A stretch of DNA of 41,672 nt from a bacterium (GCA_021794425.1 JAJYQV010000001.1:1-41672); one strand, 5' to 3'. Positions 10,512 to 28,516 are shown, counted from the first letter of the stretch. The notes: generated from the letters alone by a model not told the origin. Numbers and translations: made by a program.

Positions 10512-10751
10512 ATGAGCGAAGGCGAAGAGACCAAAACGACGACGGTTGGTTCCGTCGAAGAGGTGTTGCCTAACTCGCTCTTTCGTGTCCGCATTCCCGC
10601 TGAGAAAGAGGGAGAGGAAGGGGAGCTCGTGCTCGCCTATCTTGCAGGCAAGATGCGCTTGCATCGTATCCGCGTCCTGGTCGGCGATCAGGTAGATATG
10701 GTGCTTGATCCTTACGGGGGTCGCGCAAGGATCGTGCGCCGATTAACGTAA
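10512..10751 (+). CDS. infA: Translation initiation factor IF-1
   Basis: A 79-residue OB-fold protein that binds the ribosomal A site during initiation. Recognised by VGSVEEVLPNSLFRVRI, VLAYLAGKMRLHRIRVLVGDQVDMVL and the end DPYGGRARIVRRL (family: L..G..VLAHISGKMR.H.I.ILPGD.V.VELSPYDL..G.I..R). First gene of the nine-gene operon, with its usual neighbours L36 and S13 immediately after. Confidence 0.95.
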   Translation: MSEGEETKTTTVGSVEEVLPNSLFRVRIPAEKEGEEGELVLAYLAGKMRLHRIRVLVGDQVDMVLDPYGGRARIVRRLT

Positions 10752-24258: not shown

Positions 24259-24741
24259 ATGGCACAAAGCAGAGAAAAAGAGGGAACGACGCTTGAGACA
24301 CTCGCCCGGATTATGACGAGCGGGTTTGAGAAAGTTGACAAGCAATTCGAGAATGTCACCAAGAAGTTCGAGCAGGTGGACCTGCGATTCGAGCAGATTG
24401 ACCGCCGGTTCGGTCAATTCGATACCCGCTTTGAGCAGAACGGCCAACGCCTGACGCAGATCGAATACCGTCTGAAGGACTTGAGTCGTGACCAAGACGA
24501 ACTCTCGCGCATGGTCGCCGAGGGATTTGACGAGCTCGGCTCCGAGATGAACGAACGTATAGACAAGCTCGGGGCGAAGATGGATCAGCGTTTTACCGAA
24601 ACCGACGACCGGTTGCTGCACGCCGAGCGCGCGGCTGTAAAAGCACATGAACTCGCACTCGACCTCAAAGAAGAAACGGCAGCGATGCATACTGCCGTCA
24701 CCCTGAACTCGCAGCGTATAACCGTACTAGAAACCGTATGA
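24259..24741 (+). CDS. Heptad-repeat coiled-coil protein, unknown function
   Basis: 160 residues, predicted to be nearly all coiled coil. Residues about 23-80 are successive seven-residue units such as FEQVDLR, FEQIDRR, FGQFDTR, FEQNGQR, LTQIEYR, with hydrophobic residues at fixed positions. It has no membrane segment and no catalytic motif. It overlaps the tyrS start by 4 bases (ATGA), so the two genes are translationally coupled. Similar low-complexity coiled coils occur widely; the link with tyrS may only be positional. Confidence 0.7.
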   Translation: MAQSREKEGTTLETLARIMTSGFEKVDKQFENVTKKFEQVDLRFEQIDRRFGQFDTRFEQNGQRLTQIEYRLKDLSRDQDELSRMVAEGFDELGSEMNERIDKLGAKMDQRFTETDDRLLHAERAAVKAHELALDLKEETAAMHTAVTLNSQRITVLETV

Positions 24742-25994
24742 CTCTTGCCGACGAACTCAAAGCACGCGGACTCGTGGAGCACGCCTCGGCCGAACCGGAA
24801 GAGATCCTCAGAACCACCCGCACCGTCTACCTCGGTATCGATCCGACCGCCGACTCGGCACAAGTGGGCAACCTTGCTGTCATCCTCCTCATGAAGCGCC
24901 TCAGCGACGCCGGCCACAAGCTCGTCTTCCTCGTGGGTGGCGCGACCGGCATGATCGGTGACCCGAAAGAAAAAGGGGAGCGCTCGCTTCTCGACGAGAA
25001 GACCCTCGCGAAAAACACCCGCGCGCTCAAAGCGCAGCTCAAAGAAATCCTCGGCACCAAAGTCCGCTTCACCATGGTCGACAACGCCGATTGGTTGGGC
25101 CGTGAGAAACTCATCCCGTTCCTGCGCGACGTGGGCAAGCACTTCACGGTGAACGACCTCGTGAAGCGCGACATCATCCGCAAGCGTCTTGAGACGCCAG
25201 ACGAGAGCATCTCGTACACCGAGTTCACCTACGCGCTCCTCCAAGGATTCGATTACTTCGTCCTCAACGAGAAGTACGGCGTCGACCTCCAGGTGGGAGG
25301 GAGCGACCAGTGGACGAACATCCTCTCGGGCGTCGACCTCATCCGTAAGCGCTCGGGGAAGCAGGCGTACGCGCTCTCGATGCCGATCATTACCGACGCG
25401 TCCGGCAAGAAGTTCGGCAAGAGCGAGGGCAACGCGGTCTGGCTCGACCCCAAGAAGACCTCGCCGTTCTCGTTCTACCAGTTCTGGATCAATCAGCCCG
25501 ACGCAAACCTCGAGACGTACCTCAAGGTTTACACGTTCCTCCCGTTGCCGGAGATTGGCGCCTTGATGGAGCTCCACCGTCGGAACCCGGGCGAGCGCCA
25601 GGCACAGGAGACCCTCGCTCGGCTCGTCACCGAGATCGTGCACGGCCCGGGAACGACCGCCGCGGTCGCCGCCGCTTCCTCGGCGCTCTTCGGCGGCACG
25701 CCGTTCGCCGAGCTCTCGCGCGAGGCGCGTGAGGTCGCGCTCGCCGAAGCACCGTCGGTGTTCCTAACGAAGGAGCTTATCGAAGATGGTTTTTCGCTTG
25801 CCGAAGCGCTCGTAGCAGGAGGGCTCGCAAAGAGCAAGAGCGACGCGCGCCGCCTCATCGAAGGGAAGGGCATCACCCTCTCCGGCTTTCCGATCCAAGA
25901 CCCCGACCAGAAGCTCTACCCGGGCGACCTCCCGGAAGGCTTCGCTCTCGTGCGCCGCGGCAAGCAGGGCGTCCTCATTCTCGTTTTGAAATAA
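24738..25994 (+). CDS. tyrS: Tyrosyl-tRNA synthetase with altered HIGH motif
   Basis: 418 residues. Class I core: YLGIDPTADSAQVGNLAVIL holds the HIGH-equivalent, here QVGN (42-45); GGSDQWTNILSG is the tyrosine-binding region and KFGKS (225-229) is the KMSKS loop. The S4 tRNA-binding domain is at the C-terminus (LAEALVAGGLAKSKSDARRLIEGKGI). Both histidines of HIGH are replaced. The last 15 codons have a diverged second copy at 28277, upstream of tRNA-Tyr. Confidence 0.95.
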   Translation: MTLADELKARGLVEHASAEPEEILRTTRTVYLGIDPTADSAQVGNLAVILLMKRLSDAGHKLVFLVGGATGMIGDPKEKGERSLLDEKTLAKNTRALKAQLKEILGTKVRFTMVDNADWLGREKLIPFLRDVGKHFTVNDLVKRDIIRKRLETPDESISYTEFTYALLQGFDYFVLNEKYGVDLQVGGSDQWTNILSGVDLIRKRSGKQAYALSMPIITDASGKKFGKSEGNAVWLDPKKTSPFSFYQFWINQPDANLETYLKVYTFLPLPEIGALMELHRRNPGERQAQETLARLVTEIVHGPGTTAAVAAASSALFGGTPFAELSREAREVALAEAPSVFLTKELIEDGFSLAEALVAGGLAKSKSDARRLIEGKGITLSGFPIQDPDQKLYPGDLPEGFALVRRGKQGVLILVLK

Positions 25995-26002
25995 AGATTC
26001 AC

Positions 26003-26758
26003 ATGCCCACCGATCAAAATACGTTCGGCCTACTCAGCAAAGCATACAGTAATGCACGGCGCGGTTACCCAGACGAGTTGTATGAATATCTGCGAAACCT
26101 CATCGGCAACACCAACGCCGTAACGATAGACCTCGGGTGCGGGACGGGCATCTCAACCAGAGAACTCAAAGCGCACGGGTTTGAGGTTATCGGCGCTGAC
26201 AAAGAGCAGGGAATGGTTGCCGAGGCGTTGCGAGAAACTCCAGATATTCCATACGTTGTTGCCGGGGCGGATAGCATCCCGTTCGAATCCGATCATTTCG
26301 ACCTATGCACTGCCTTTACGGCATTCCATTGGTTCAACACAGAACTTGCGCTTACAGAGATACGGCGCGTGCTAAAGAATGGCGGTCTTTTCTTCGCGGC
26401 GCTCAAGATGAATCACAAATCAGAGGATACCGAGGGGTTCCGGAAAGGCTACCAGGCAATCTATCGCAAATATGCGGGCAACACATTCAGCACCCTAAGC
26501 GACCACGACAATAGAGAGTTTTTGGCGAAGCTTTTTACGAATCTCACAGAGAAGACATTCTACGTCGAGGAGCGCTACACCGTAGACGAAATGCTCACGC
26601 TTGCACAATCACTCAGTCTCTGGAATCTCGTGTCTGACGGGAACCGACCGAAGATGCTGCAAGAACTTAGAGATTTTTATGAGCAGCACCTCATAGACGG
26701 GATGGTGGTAAGGAAACAAGAAATTGCAACCGTTGCCGCGACAAAGGCGGTGGCATGA
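26003..26758 (+). CDS. Class I SAM-dependent methyltransferase (UbiE-like fold)
   Basis: 251 residues. Motif I IDLGCGTGISTRELKAHG (about 45-62), strand-2 acid GADKEQGM, motif IV FDLCTAFTAFHWFN and GGLFFAALKM. The N-terminal FGLLSKAYSNARRGYP resembles small-molecule methyltransferases of the TMT1/UbiE group. Substrate unknown. It is AT-richer than tyrS and lies between tyrS and an IS element, in a segment flanked by tyrS-tail copies, so it may have been acquired. Confidence 0.75.
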   Translation: MPTDQNTFGLLSKAYSNARRGYPDELYEYLRNLIGNTNAVTIDLGCGTGISTRELKAHGFEVIGADKEQGMVAEALRETPDIPYVVAGADSIPFESDHFDLCTAFTAFHWFNTELALTEIRRVLKNGGLFFAALKMNHKSEDTEGFRKGYQAIYRKYAGNTFSTLSDHDNREFLAKLFTNLTEKTFYVEERYTVDEMLTLAQSLSLWNLVSDGNRPKMLQELRDFYEQHLIDGMVVRKQEIATVAATKAVA

Positions 26759-26783
26759 AAAAGGCCTGCGCATGCGCAGGCCT
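26758..26783 (-). terminator. Terminator of the NlpC/P60 gene
   Basis: Perfect 22-nt palindrome AGGCCTGCGCATGCGCAGGC.. followed on the minus strand by a T-run. It lies between convergent genes and may serve both. Confidence 0.75.
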
Positions 26784-27178
26784 CAAAGCAATCGTTGGAT
26801 TTTCATCTTCGTCCCGTCTCCGCGGAACTCCTCTAAGGTACTCTCGACTACCGTACCGGCGTTCGGGTCAGCATGAATGACCGTGCCGCATTCGGTAGCG
26901 ATGCCGACGTGACCCGGGGCGTTGTAACGAGCCGCTCCGAACACGAACACCAGGTCTCCCGCCATACGTTCCTCAAGAGGTACGTTCTGGCCCATCTCAT
27001 TTTGCTGAGACAGCGGAAGCGCGGTGCCGATTAGAGCGTACAGGTACGCTGTCAAGGAAGTGCAAGAAACTTTTCCCGGTGCCTCCGCAAGGGAAGCGTG
27101 CCGGTCATACACCGCCTGATTGATCAACTTGCGCGCCCCGGCCACCAAGACCAGGCGCTTTTCTTCGCGCGTGGTCAT
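26783..27178 (-). CDS. NlpC/P60-type cysteine peptidase/amidase, small
   Basis: 131 residues. Catalytic Cys39 is in VSCTSLTAYLYALIG, His90 in PGHVGIATECG, and a third polar residue is His102 in VIHAD, which fits the NlpC/P60 triad (C, H, H). These enzymes usually cut peptidoglycan stem peptides, but there is no signal peptide, so the target may be internal or it may be phage-derived. Strong SD (AGGAGG). Divergent from the IS30-type transposase. Confidence 0.75.
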   Translation of the reverse strand: MTTREEKRLVLVAGARKLINQAVYDRHASLAEAPGKVSCTSLTAYLYALIGTALPLSQQNEMGQNVPLEERMAGDLVFVFGAARYNAPGHVGIATECGTVIHADPNAGTVVESTLEEFRGDGTKMKIQRLL

Positions 27179-27215
27179 GGTAACCTCCTCACTTGGTTAC
27201 TTCTCCCCACCTTTG

Positions 27216-28188
27216 AAATAGGACAGCACACGTGCGCTAACGTACGGTCATATGAAGCAATACAAACATCTGTGCCATGAGGAGCGGTTCATGATCGAAA
27301 CGCTTCTCAAGAAATACGTGGCCATCCGAGAGATCGCCCGGTTCCTGGGGAGAAGCCCCAATACCGTCTCCCGTGAGATACGGAAGAACTCGGTGCAGGG
27401 CGCGTATCGTGCCGACAAAGCCAAACAGAGGGCATACTTCAAACGATGGAGAAGCAAACGCCAGTGCCTCAAGGTGGCGACTGACCGATTCCTGCACCAC
27501 TTCGTGGATGAGAAGCTGCGGGAGAAGTGGTCACCCGAGCAGATCAGCGGGTATCTAGAGAAGGAGCTCGGTATCGTGTGTTCTGCAAAGGCCATATACA
27601 AGTTCGCCCGTCGCCGCTGCTATGACCGGTACCTCTTCTGGGGCTGGAACAAGCGCAAGGGAGGAAGGAAGCAGTATCACTATGGAAACCAGAAAGATGG
27701 GAGGAAATACATAGACGAGAGGCCAGTACTTGATGGCCCTGGACACCTTGAGATGGACTTCGTCGTCTCCAGGCAGAGTACCTGGGTGTTCCTGGTCTTA
27801 GCGGACCGGCACACCCGGAGGACCTGGGTACGGAAGCTGCCGGACAGAAAGCGCGGCACTGTCCGTGCCGCGCTTTCTGAGCTGTTGTCCGGGGTTGAGG
27901 TTAAGAGCATCACCACCGACAACGATATTGCCTTCTCGAACTGGAGGGAACTCGAGGTTCTCCTCGCTGCTCCATTGTACTTCACCCACCCGTACCACTC
28001 CTGGGAAAAGGGGCTGGTGGAGAACACCAACCGGTGGATCCGGTGCTTCGTGCCGAAGAAGCGAGATATCGGGTCGGTGACTCAAGAAGAGATGCGAGAG
28101 ATACATGCCTTCTTGAACGACCGACCGCGTGCGGTGATTGGCTTCGCCATCCCCTCGCGCTATTATTCAGACATCGCGTGTCCTATTT
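27216..28188 (+). mobile_element. IS30-family insertion sequence
   Basis: About 1 kb: an intact transposase gene bounded by inverted repeats with the core AAATAGGACA (27216-27225) and TGTCCTATTT (28179-28188). The outer limits may extend a few bases further, and no clean target duplication could be set by eye. The transposase stop codon overlaps the right repeat. Confidence 0.75.
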
Positions 28189-28190
28189 GA
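27252..28190 (+). CDS. IS30-family transposase
   Basis: 312 residues with no frameshift. N-terminal helix-turn-helix (AIREIARFLGRSPNTVSREI), then the DDE integrase core: D169 (LEMDFVV), D223 (TTDNDIAF) and E257 (LVENTNRW), with the D-33-E spacing typical of IS30. It appears functional. It lies 60 bases from the divergent NlpC/P60 start. Confidence 0.93.
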   Translation: MKQYKHLCHEERFMIETLLKKYVAIREIARFLGRSPNTVSREIRKNSVQGAYRADKAKQRAYFKRWRSKRQCLKVATDRFLHHFVDEKLREKWSPEQISGYLEKELGIVCSAKAIYKFARRRCYDRYLFWGWNKRKGGRKQYHYGNQKDGRKYIDERPVLDGPGHLEMDFVVSRQSTWVFLVLADRHTRRTWVRKLPDRKRGTVRAALSELLSGVEVKSITTDNDIAFSNWRELEVLLAAPLYFTHPYHSWEKGLVENTNRWIRCFVPKKRDIGSVTQEEMREIHAFLNDRPRAVIGFAIPSRYYSDIACPI

Positions 28191-28276
28191 GGGGTTTGGG
28201 GAGGGTTAATCGCCAGTTTTAAATATGCTACTTATTTATACTAAAGTCAAGCAGTTTCTCGACCCATTTTCTCATG

Positions 28277-28324
28277 CTCGTCCGCTGCGGCAAGCAGAGC
28301 GTTTTGATTTTGCATACCAAATAA
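28277..28324 (+). pseudogene. Second, diverged copy of the tyrS 3' end
   Basis: Fifteen codons and a stop (LVRCGKQSVLILHTK*) align without gaps to the tyrS end (LVRRGKQGVLILVLK*): 11 of 15 residues and 35 of 48 bases match, with stops in register. Upstream homology is not clear. It ends within the promoter of tRNA-Tyr. Confidence 0.75.
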
Positions 28325-28332
28325 GATAAAAT
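28304..28332 (+). promoter_or_regulatory. tRNA-Tyr promoter
   Basis: TTGATT, 17-base spacer, TAAAAT, about 45 bases before the mature tRNA. Confidence 0.65.
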
Positions 28333-28376
28333 GTTCTTGTTGTCAGGCGCGCATTCTCCGCAACTTGACAAAGTAA

Positions 28377-28459
28377 GCGTCGGTGGTAGAGTGGTCAATT
28401 ACAACAGGCTGTAAACCTGTCGGCTTCGGCCTACGTTGGTTCGAATCCAACCCGGCGCA
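28377..28459 (+). tRNA. tRNA-Tyr (GTA anticodon)
   Basis: Acceptor arms GCGTCGG / CCGGCGC (one G-T pair); D arm GTAG/TTAC; anticodon arm ACAGG-CTGTAAA-CCTGT with anticodon GTA at 28411-28413; long variable arm of 14 bases with a GGC-TTCG-GCC hairpin (type II, as in bacterial tRNA-Tyr); T arm GTTGG-TTCGAAT-CCAAC. Discriminator base A. The 3' CCA is not encoded (ACCG follows), so CCA must be added. Confidence 0.93.
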
Positions 28460-28471
28460 CCGTAGAGCCAC

Positions 28472-28516
28472 CCAAACAGACACGCGCCCGCCTCCGGCGG
28501 GCGCGTGTCTGTTTGG
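28472..28516. terminator. Perfect 21-bp hairpin after tRNA-Tyr
   Basis: Two 21-base arms (first begins CCAAACAGACACGCG) pair without mismatch around loop TCC. No T-run follows. It probably ends the tRNA transcript or insulates the next promoter. Confidence 0.7.

Follow-up and report, generated by a model that had tools for sequence, protein, structure and literature searches.

The window analysed here, a 41,672 nt (41.7 kb) stretch that makes up contig 38 (C38) of a 688-kb assembly, carries an intact tyrS gene and, further downstream, a tRNA-Tyr gene directly preceded by a second, diverged copy of the tyrS 3′ end (the displaced tail). The two tails flank a segment of accessory genes, and the features of this interval are as follows.

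24738–25994, + strand: tyrS, 418 aa, intact, with TTG AAA (25986–25991) as its last two codons
25947–25994, + strand: tail of the resident tyrS, its final 15 codons plus stop
26003–26758, + strand: S-adenosylmethionine (SAM)-dependent methyltransferase gene (Methyltransf_11, 6e-21)
26783–27178, − strand: NlpC/P60 family protein gene (2e-8)
27202–28202, + strand: IS30-type insertion sequence, transposase at 27252–28190 (HTH_38, 7e-14; weak rve match)
28277–28324, + strand: displaced tyrS tail, 15 codons and stop
28304–28332, + strand: candidate promoter TTGATT-17-TAAAAT overlapping the displaced tail, predicted from sequence
28325–28376, + strand: 52-nt spacer, lacking the TATACT/TATAGT promoter of the genus and resembling the 3′ end of family A genes (described below)
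28377–28461, + strand: tRNA-Tyr(gta), whose anticodon-stem core is the common GGCTGTAAACC

The first-pass annotation had aligned 28277–28324 without gaps to the last 15 codons and stop of tyrS, and its coordinates were right: the two tails share 35/48 nt, 11/15 residues and the stop codon (LVRRGKQGVLILVLK and stop versus LVRCGKQSVLILHTK and stop), the displaced copy being in frame with the tyrS tail and ending at the same stop position. This pair is the longest direct repeat within 25900–28480. Among 2000 dinucleotide-preserving shuffles of 28196–28376 none scored above 27/48 against the tyrS tail, the best further placement of the tail elsewhere in the whole window (both strands) reached 28/48, and the next-best translated match in a window-wide scan was 8/16 residues. 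Chance similarity is ruled out by the shuffles together with the scan.

Domain searches agreed with the annotation that only the methyltransferase, NlpC/P60 and IS30 genes lie between the tails, and the IS30 element is bounded by 24-nt inverted repeats (27202–27225 and 28179–28202, 75% identity), as expected for a member of this family. No close homologue of the methyltransferase was found in the genomes of the genus, which is why the segment is regarded as acquired and which supports the earlier proposal that a foreign segment split the neighbourhood; its matches on plasmids were all <60% identical and to general SAM methyltransferases, and named no donor. A direct repeat of a gene 3′ end flanking an acquired segment is also the layout left by attachment-site duplication, driven by the integrase of an element inserting at the tyrS 3′ end. 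However, a domain search of the genes between 25994 and 28277 found no integrase, the repeats are only 73% identical, and the IS30 element ends within the interval in inverted repeats of its own. We consider this origin very improbable, and rejected it for want of an integrase and because the repeats are too unlike.

The 13 nucleotide differences between the tails alter four residues and leave the meaning of 12/16 codons unchanged, an outcome seen in 0.4–1.2% of random-substitution trials (p 0.004–0.012 versus neutral decay). Two CTC-to-TTG double changes in the displaced copy are synonymous, and TTG ATT TTG is present in the functional tyrS tail of a relative (G009). These features argue against a tandem duplication of the resident tail, with subsequent splitting by the insert and neutral decay thereafter, an explanation for which one relative (G087) offers a precedent, with a fresh-looking pair of CTCGTTTTGAAATA(A/G) copies separated by a 15-nt hairpin; for the window we regard it as unlikely. 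Since the divergence is mostly of the coding type, the displaced copy looks like the terminal codons of a different tyrS allele that diverged as coding sequence, and not like a decaying copy of the resident tail. A search for a second full-length tyrS, suggested earlier as a check, found none: the window genome has a single tyrS.

We compared 78 tyrS loci of the genus (Ca. Kaiserbacteria-like, Patescibacteria), the window included. A tRNA-Tyr gene follows tyrS on the same strand at 15–60 bp (mostly 28–44) in 44/78 loci, bearing out the suggestion of an ancestral tyrS–tRNA-Tyr neighbourhood. At other loci the junction holds an endonuclease-like gene of family A (11/78) or family B (5/78), the tRNA-Tyr lies on the opposite strand (6/78), a displaced tyrS tail is present (6/78, window included), or the arrangement is different again (6/78). 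Opposite-strand tRNA-Tyr genes were seen right after tyrS at L007, L011, L012, L020, L075, L076 and L103, some of them 4 bp from the stop codon, with an extra tRNA-like stretch beside the inverted gene in L103 and L075; such a stretch in G107 matched no family beyond tRNA itself and a sub-threshold hit to sX4. The inserts after tyrS at L010, L017 and L012 share a recurrent reverse-strand open reading frame (ORF), cysteine-rich and 70–86 aa long, which lies with a terminator-like hairpin between tyrS and tRNA-Tyr.

In 35 of the 45 short-gap loci, TTGAAA is found 16–17 nt ahead of TATACT/TATAGT, and in 32 of these 35 it immediately precedes the stop codon of tyrS, constituting the last two codons (Leu-Lys). 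The −35 box of tRNA-Tyr is usually the Leu-Lys end of tyrS, and the TTG AAA at 25986–25991 of the window has the same sequence as this box in relatives. Tails without TTGAAA (for example G018, G010 and G076) are followed by a TGGAAA-type −35 box after the stop codon and a longer gap, and in G016 the stop codon has shifted by four codons with the position of TTGAAA unchanged. As the promoter overlaps the end of tyrS, an insertion that spares both genes must leave two copies of the overlap. Such remnants were indeed present in relatives, against the possibility raised earlier that tyrS and tRNA-Tyr are never adjacent there and leave no tail: GTTTTGAAATAA with a promoter lies displaced beside tRNA-Tyr in G033, G015, G021 and G087, with a further tyrS end ahead of the insert, and G082 has a partial copy (GGAAATAA). 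The tyrS tree requires five changes in the presence of a tail copy, at least three of them forced.

Our favoured explanation, to which we assign a probability of about 0.7, is that 28277–28324 represents a tyrS 3′ end displaced when the tyrS/tRNA-Tyr junction was opened, and retained as a source of the tRNA-Tyr promoter. The starting state would be the normal arrangement of the genus, a tRNA-Tyr directly after tyrS with its promoter woven into the tyrS tail; the methyltransferase–NlpC/P60–IS30 segment would then have been linked to the front of a tail from a different tyrS allele, either because it arrived with its own tyrS 3′ end or by recombination within tyrS. The displaced tail would persist because tRNA-Tyr is driven by sequence within it and immediately beyond it. 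A search of a 301-nt region found three promoter-like sites versus 0.3 expected, of which TTGATT-17-TAAAAT (28304–28332) may be the promoter of the window tRNA-Tyr and is the best candidate. At loci where a family A gene now lies between tyrS and tRNA-Tyr, none of six Leu-Lys tails keeps TTGAAA, versus 44/48 elsewhere, a pattern indicating that resident tails separated from their tRNA lose TTGAAA through synonymous change; the resident tail of the window retains it, which suggests a recent separation.

Several points weigh against this explanation. The candidate promoter agrees with a promoter sequence at 9/12 positions, and it is not the inherited one, as the displaced copy has lost TTGAAA (replaced by ACCAAA). 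The copy has only 48 nt, too short for placement on a tree, so it was compared by distances, and its best match among relatives (G005, 37/48) is barely above the resident tail. The join itself is inferred, and a sister genome (G090, 82–83% tyrS identity) carries a different insert of 656 bp. Sister DNA of this type was also considered as the source of the tail and rejected, since the G090 insert shares nothing with window positions 25996–28376.

Alternatively, the insert may have brought a foreign tyrS tail and displaced the native C-terminus, as in fungal mitochondrial mobile ORFs, where a LAGLIDADG or GIY-YIG ORF lies between two C-termini in hybrids of atp6, atp9, cox2 and nad3 (PMC3630166). 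The layout of the window is similar, and in G021 it is the resident tail that has been recoded (CTAGTGCTCAAATAG), the displaced one still reading GTTTTGAAATAA. Against this, there is no endonuclease gene between the tails of the window, the resident tail has a native appearance (TTGAAA kept, matches of up to 45/48 to relatives), and the other tail-copy genomes displace only 12–15 nt; we place this origin on the unlikely side.

The tyrS/tRNA-Tyr junction is a hotspot that has been invaded repeatedly, mostly by free-standing endonuclease-like genes abutting the 5′ end of tRNA-Tyr. Such genes were found in 16 genomes and form two families, both of which reach or run into tRNA-Tyr. Family B, an ORF of approximately 262 aa in five genomes (one copy lacks its start, and another is cut off by a contig end), belongs to the LAGLIDADG enzymes by two stretches of PF14528 LAGLIDADG_3 (2.6e-19 and 1.2e-18), and matches the TliVMA intein endonuclease in the PDB (2e-6). 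Family A, an ORF of approximately 215 aa in 11 genomes, gave only helix-turn-helix (HTH) domains with Pfam, at its N-terminus. An AlphaFold2 model of its second domain (predicted local distance difference test score, pLDDT, 91) had TliVMA as its best VIA match (Z 7.8, 91 residues, root-mean-square deviation 3.2), which is not decisive, and Foldseek returned no match to the model at E 0.001. When the profiles of the two families were compared, only the HTH part aligned, and no common origin is claimed. Presence of the families is patchy on the tyrS tree, with ten gains or losses of family A required, at least six of them forced. At one family A locus (L102 in G068), tyrS appears in two frames, which may be a real split or an assembly error.

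Across 92 genomes, the 11 best matches of family A coincide exactly with the tRNA-Tyr loci; weaker relatives mostly precede a tRNA-Ile, Gly or Ala gene, and relatives of family B a tRNA-Ser gene. The stop codons of these A- and B-like genes are usually 3–15 nt from the tRNA; A-like genes without a same-strand tRNA downstream were L124–L128, L138 and L139. The window genome (G000) has two such genes, an A-like one at tRNA-Gly(gcc) (L132, C25:1808–2404) and a B-like one at tRNA-Ser(gct) (L147, C18:1895–2491), with no family A or B match on the window contig C38 and no endonuclease-like ORF between its tyrS and tRNA-Tyr. In GTDB genomes, mostly Patescibacteria with some Omnitrophota, a same-strand tRNA 5′ end lies within 100 nt of the gene end in 54/75 testable loci, versus 5% of control positions at the same loci. 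In these two phyla, the tRNA genes directly preceded by one of the A- and B-like genes collected (L155–L206, L122–L150) include those for tRNA-Tyr, Thr, Arg, Gly, Gln, Ile, Ser and Ala. At Omnitrophota loci such as L193, L196 and L199, ARAGORN with introns allowed places the gene stop approximately 77 nt past the start of tRNA-Tyr, with a tRNA-Thr upstream, possibly a read-through or intron-like arrangement.

This raises the question whether the window once carried a family A gene, the displaced tail and 28325–28376 together being the scar of a lost tRNA-Tyr-specific gene of which the spacer would hold the last 22 codons. When the 52 nt were aligned, with anchoring, to the 3′ ends of family A genes (best G086), 2/1000 shuffles reached the score, TTGACAAA precedes the tRNA in G086 and G114 as well, the displaced tail lacks TTGAAA like all six LK-ending tails at family A loci, and G005 carries a comparable, half-deleted family B gene. 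By local alignment, the similarity of the spacer to relatives is weak (z 2–3). However, the window tRNA-Tyr has the common core GGCTGTAAACC, seen at none of the family A loci, and the similarity is short and was spotted post hoc. Involvement of family A in the window scar is thus only suggestive, and we rate it as a serious possibility somewhat short of even odds.

The tRNA genes next to these ORFs differ from those without them. The anticodon-stem core GGCTGTAAACC was found at 0/11 family A loci versus 53/60 gene-free loci (p 1e-8). Of six supported and independent pairs, 4–5 agreed with this association and none opposed it (sign test p 0.06, the lowest value that so few pairs allow). At family B loci the anticodon-stem core is unchanged and the D-arm is altered (4/4 versus 1/60). 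Altered alleles are the pattern that would be expected if the gene cuts the tRNA gene and its carriers resist; a toxin acting on the tRNA, instead of cutting of the tRNA gene, may also lie behind them. Tentatively, and as a possibility that we do not yet hold to be probable, we suggest that Patescibacteria and Omnitrophota harbor LAGLIDADG-type selfish genes, each dedicated to one tRNA, residing at its 5′ end and targeting its gene, that the recoded anticodon-stem or D-arm alleles of carriers would escape cutting, and that the tail copy in the window would be a scar of such traffic.

Elsewhere in the window, an ARAGORN call of tRNA-Ala at 10625–10722 falls in coding sequence and has no tRNA support from Rfam; this coding sequence, recognised by eye, presumably encodes translation initiation factor IF-1.

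Free-standing LAGLIDADG homing endonuclease genes share with family B the two LAGLIDADG_3 stretches, and with the genes described here the patchy presence and altered target-region alleles; the present genes differ in abutting or overlapping the 5′ end of one tRNA, each subfamily having its own, on a bacterial chromosome and without an intron, their cleavage activity being putative. Phage T4 SegB, which also appears in PMC13096335, is a free-standing homing endonuclease. It is a GIY-YIG, phage-borne enzyme encoded beside tRNA genes. The association of a selfish endonuclease gene with tRNA genes is common to both cases, whereas the genes here are of LAGLIDADG or LAGLIDADG-like type, lie on the chromosome and number one for each kind of tRNA. 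LAGLIDADG genes in rRNA insertions of candidate phyla radiation (CPR) bacteria (PMC11809585 and its reference 70) also place such an endonuclease in an RNA gene region of Patescibacteria, but inside the insertions, and not outside intact tRNA genes. A displaced gene end as a kind of event is already known from mitochondria, where mobile-ORF hybrids with duplicated C-termini occur in Allomyces (atp6) and Glomus (atp6, atp9, cox2 and nad3) (PMC3630166). These share with the window a gene 3′ end present twice, flanking an insert, with divergence rich in synonymous changes; they have an endonuclease ORF between the copies where the window has a methyltransferase, NlpC/P60 and an IS30 transposase. 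The window copy further differs in its explanation, the overlap of a tRNA promoter with the end of the gene, and the endonuclease-like genes of the genus in abutting the tRNA without a second tail. No report of tRNA-linked endonuclease-like genes in Patescibacteria was found in the literature searched, which covered few subscription papers, and both the promoter overlap and the tRNA-dedicated endonuclease-like genes at the tyrS/tRNA-Tyr junction appear unreported there.

The comparison of approximately 80 genomes yields a rule, in which a tRNA promoter overlapping the end of a gene explains a duplicated gene tail beside the tRNA. It also presents essential tRNA genes of ultrasmall bacteria as sites occupied by endonuclease-like genes, where tRNA alleles that seem resistant form a natural record, and tRNA-gene homing in bacteria thereby becomes directly testable.

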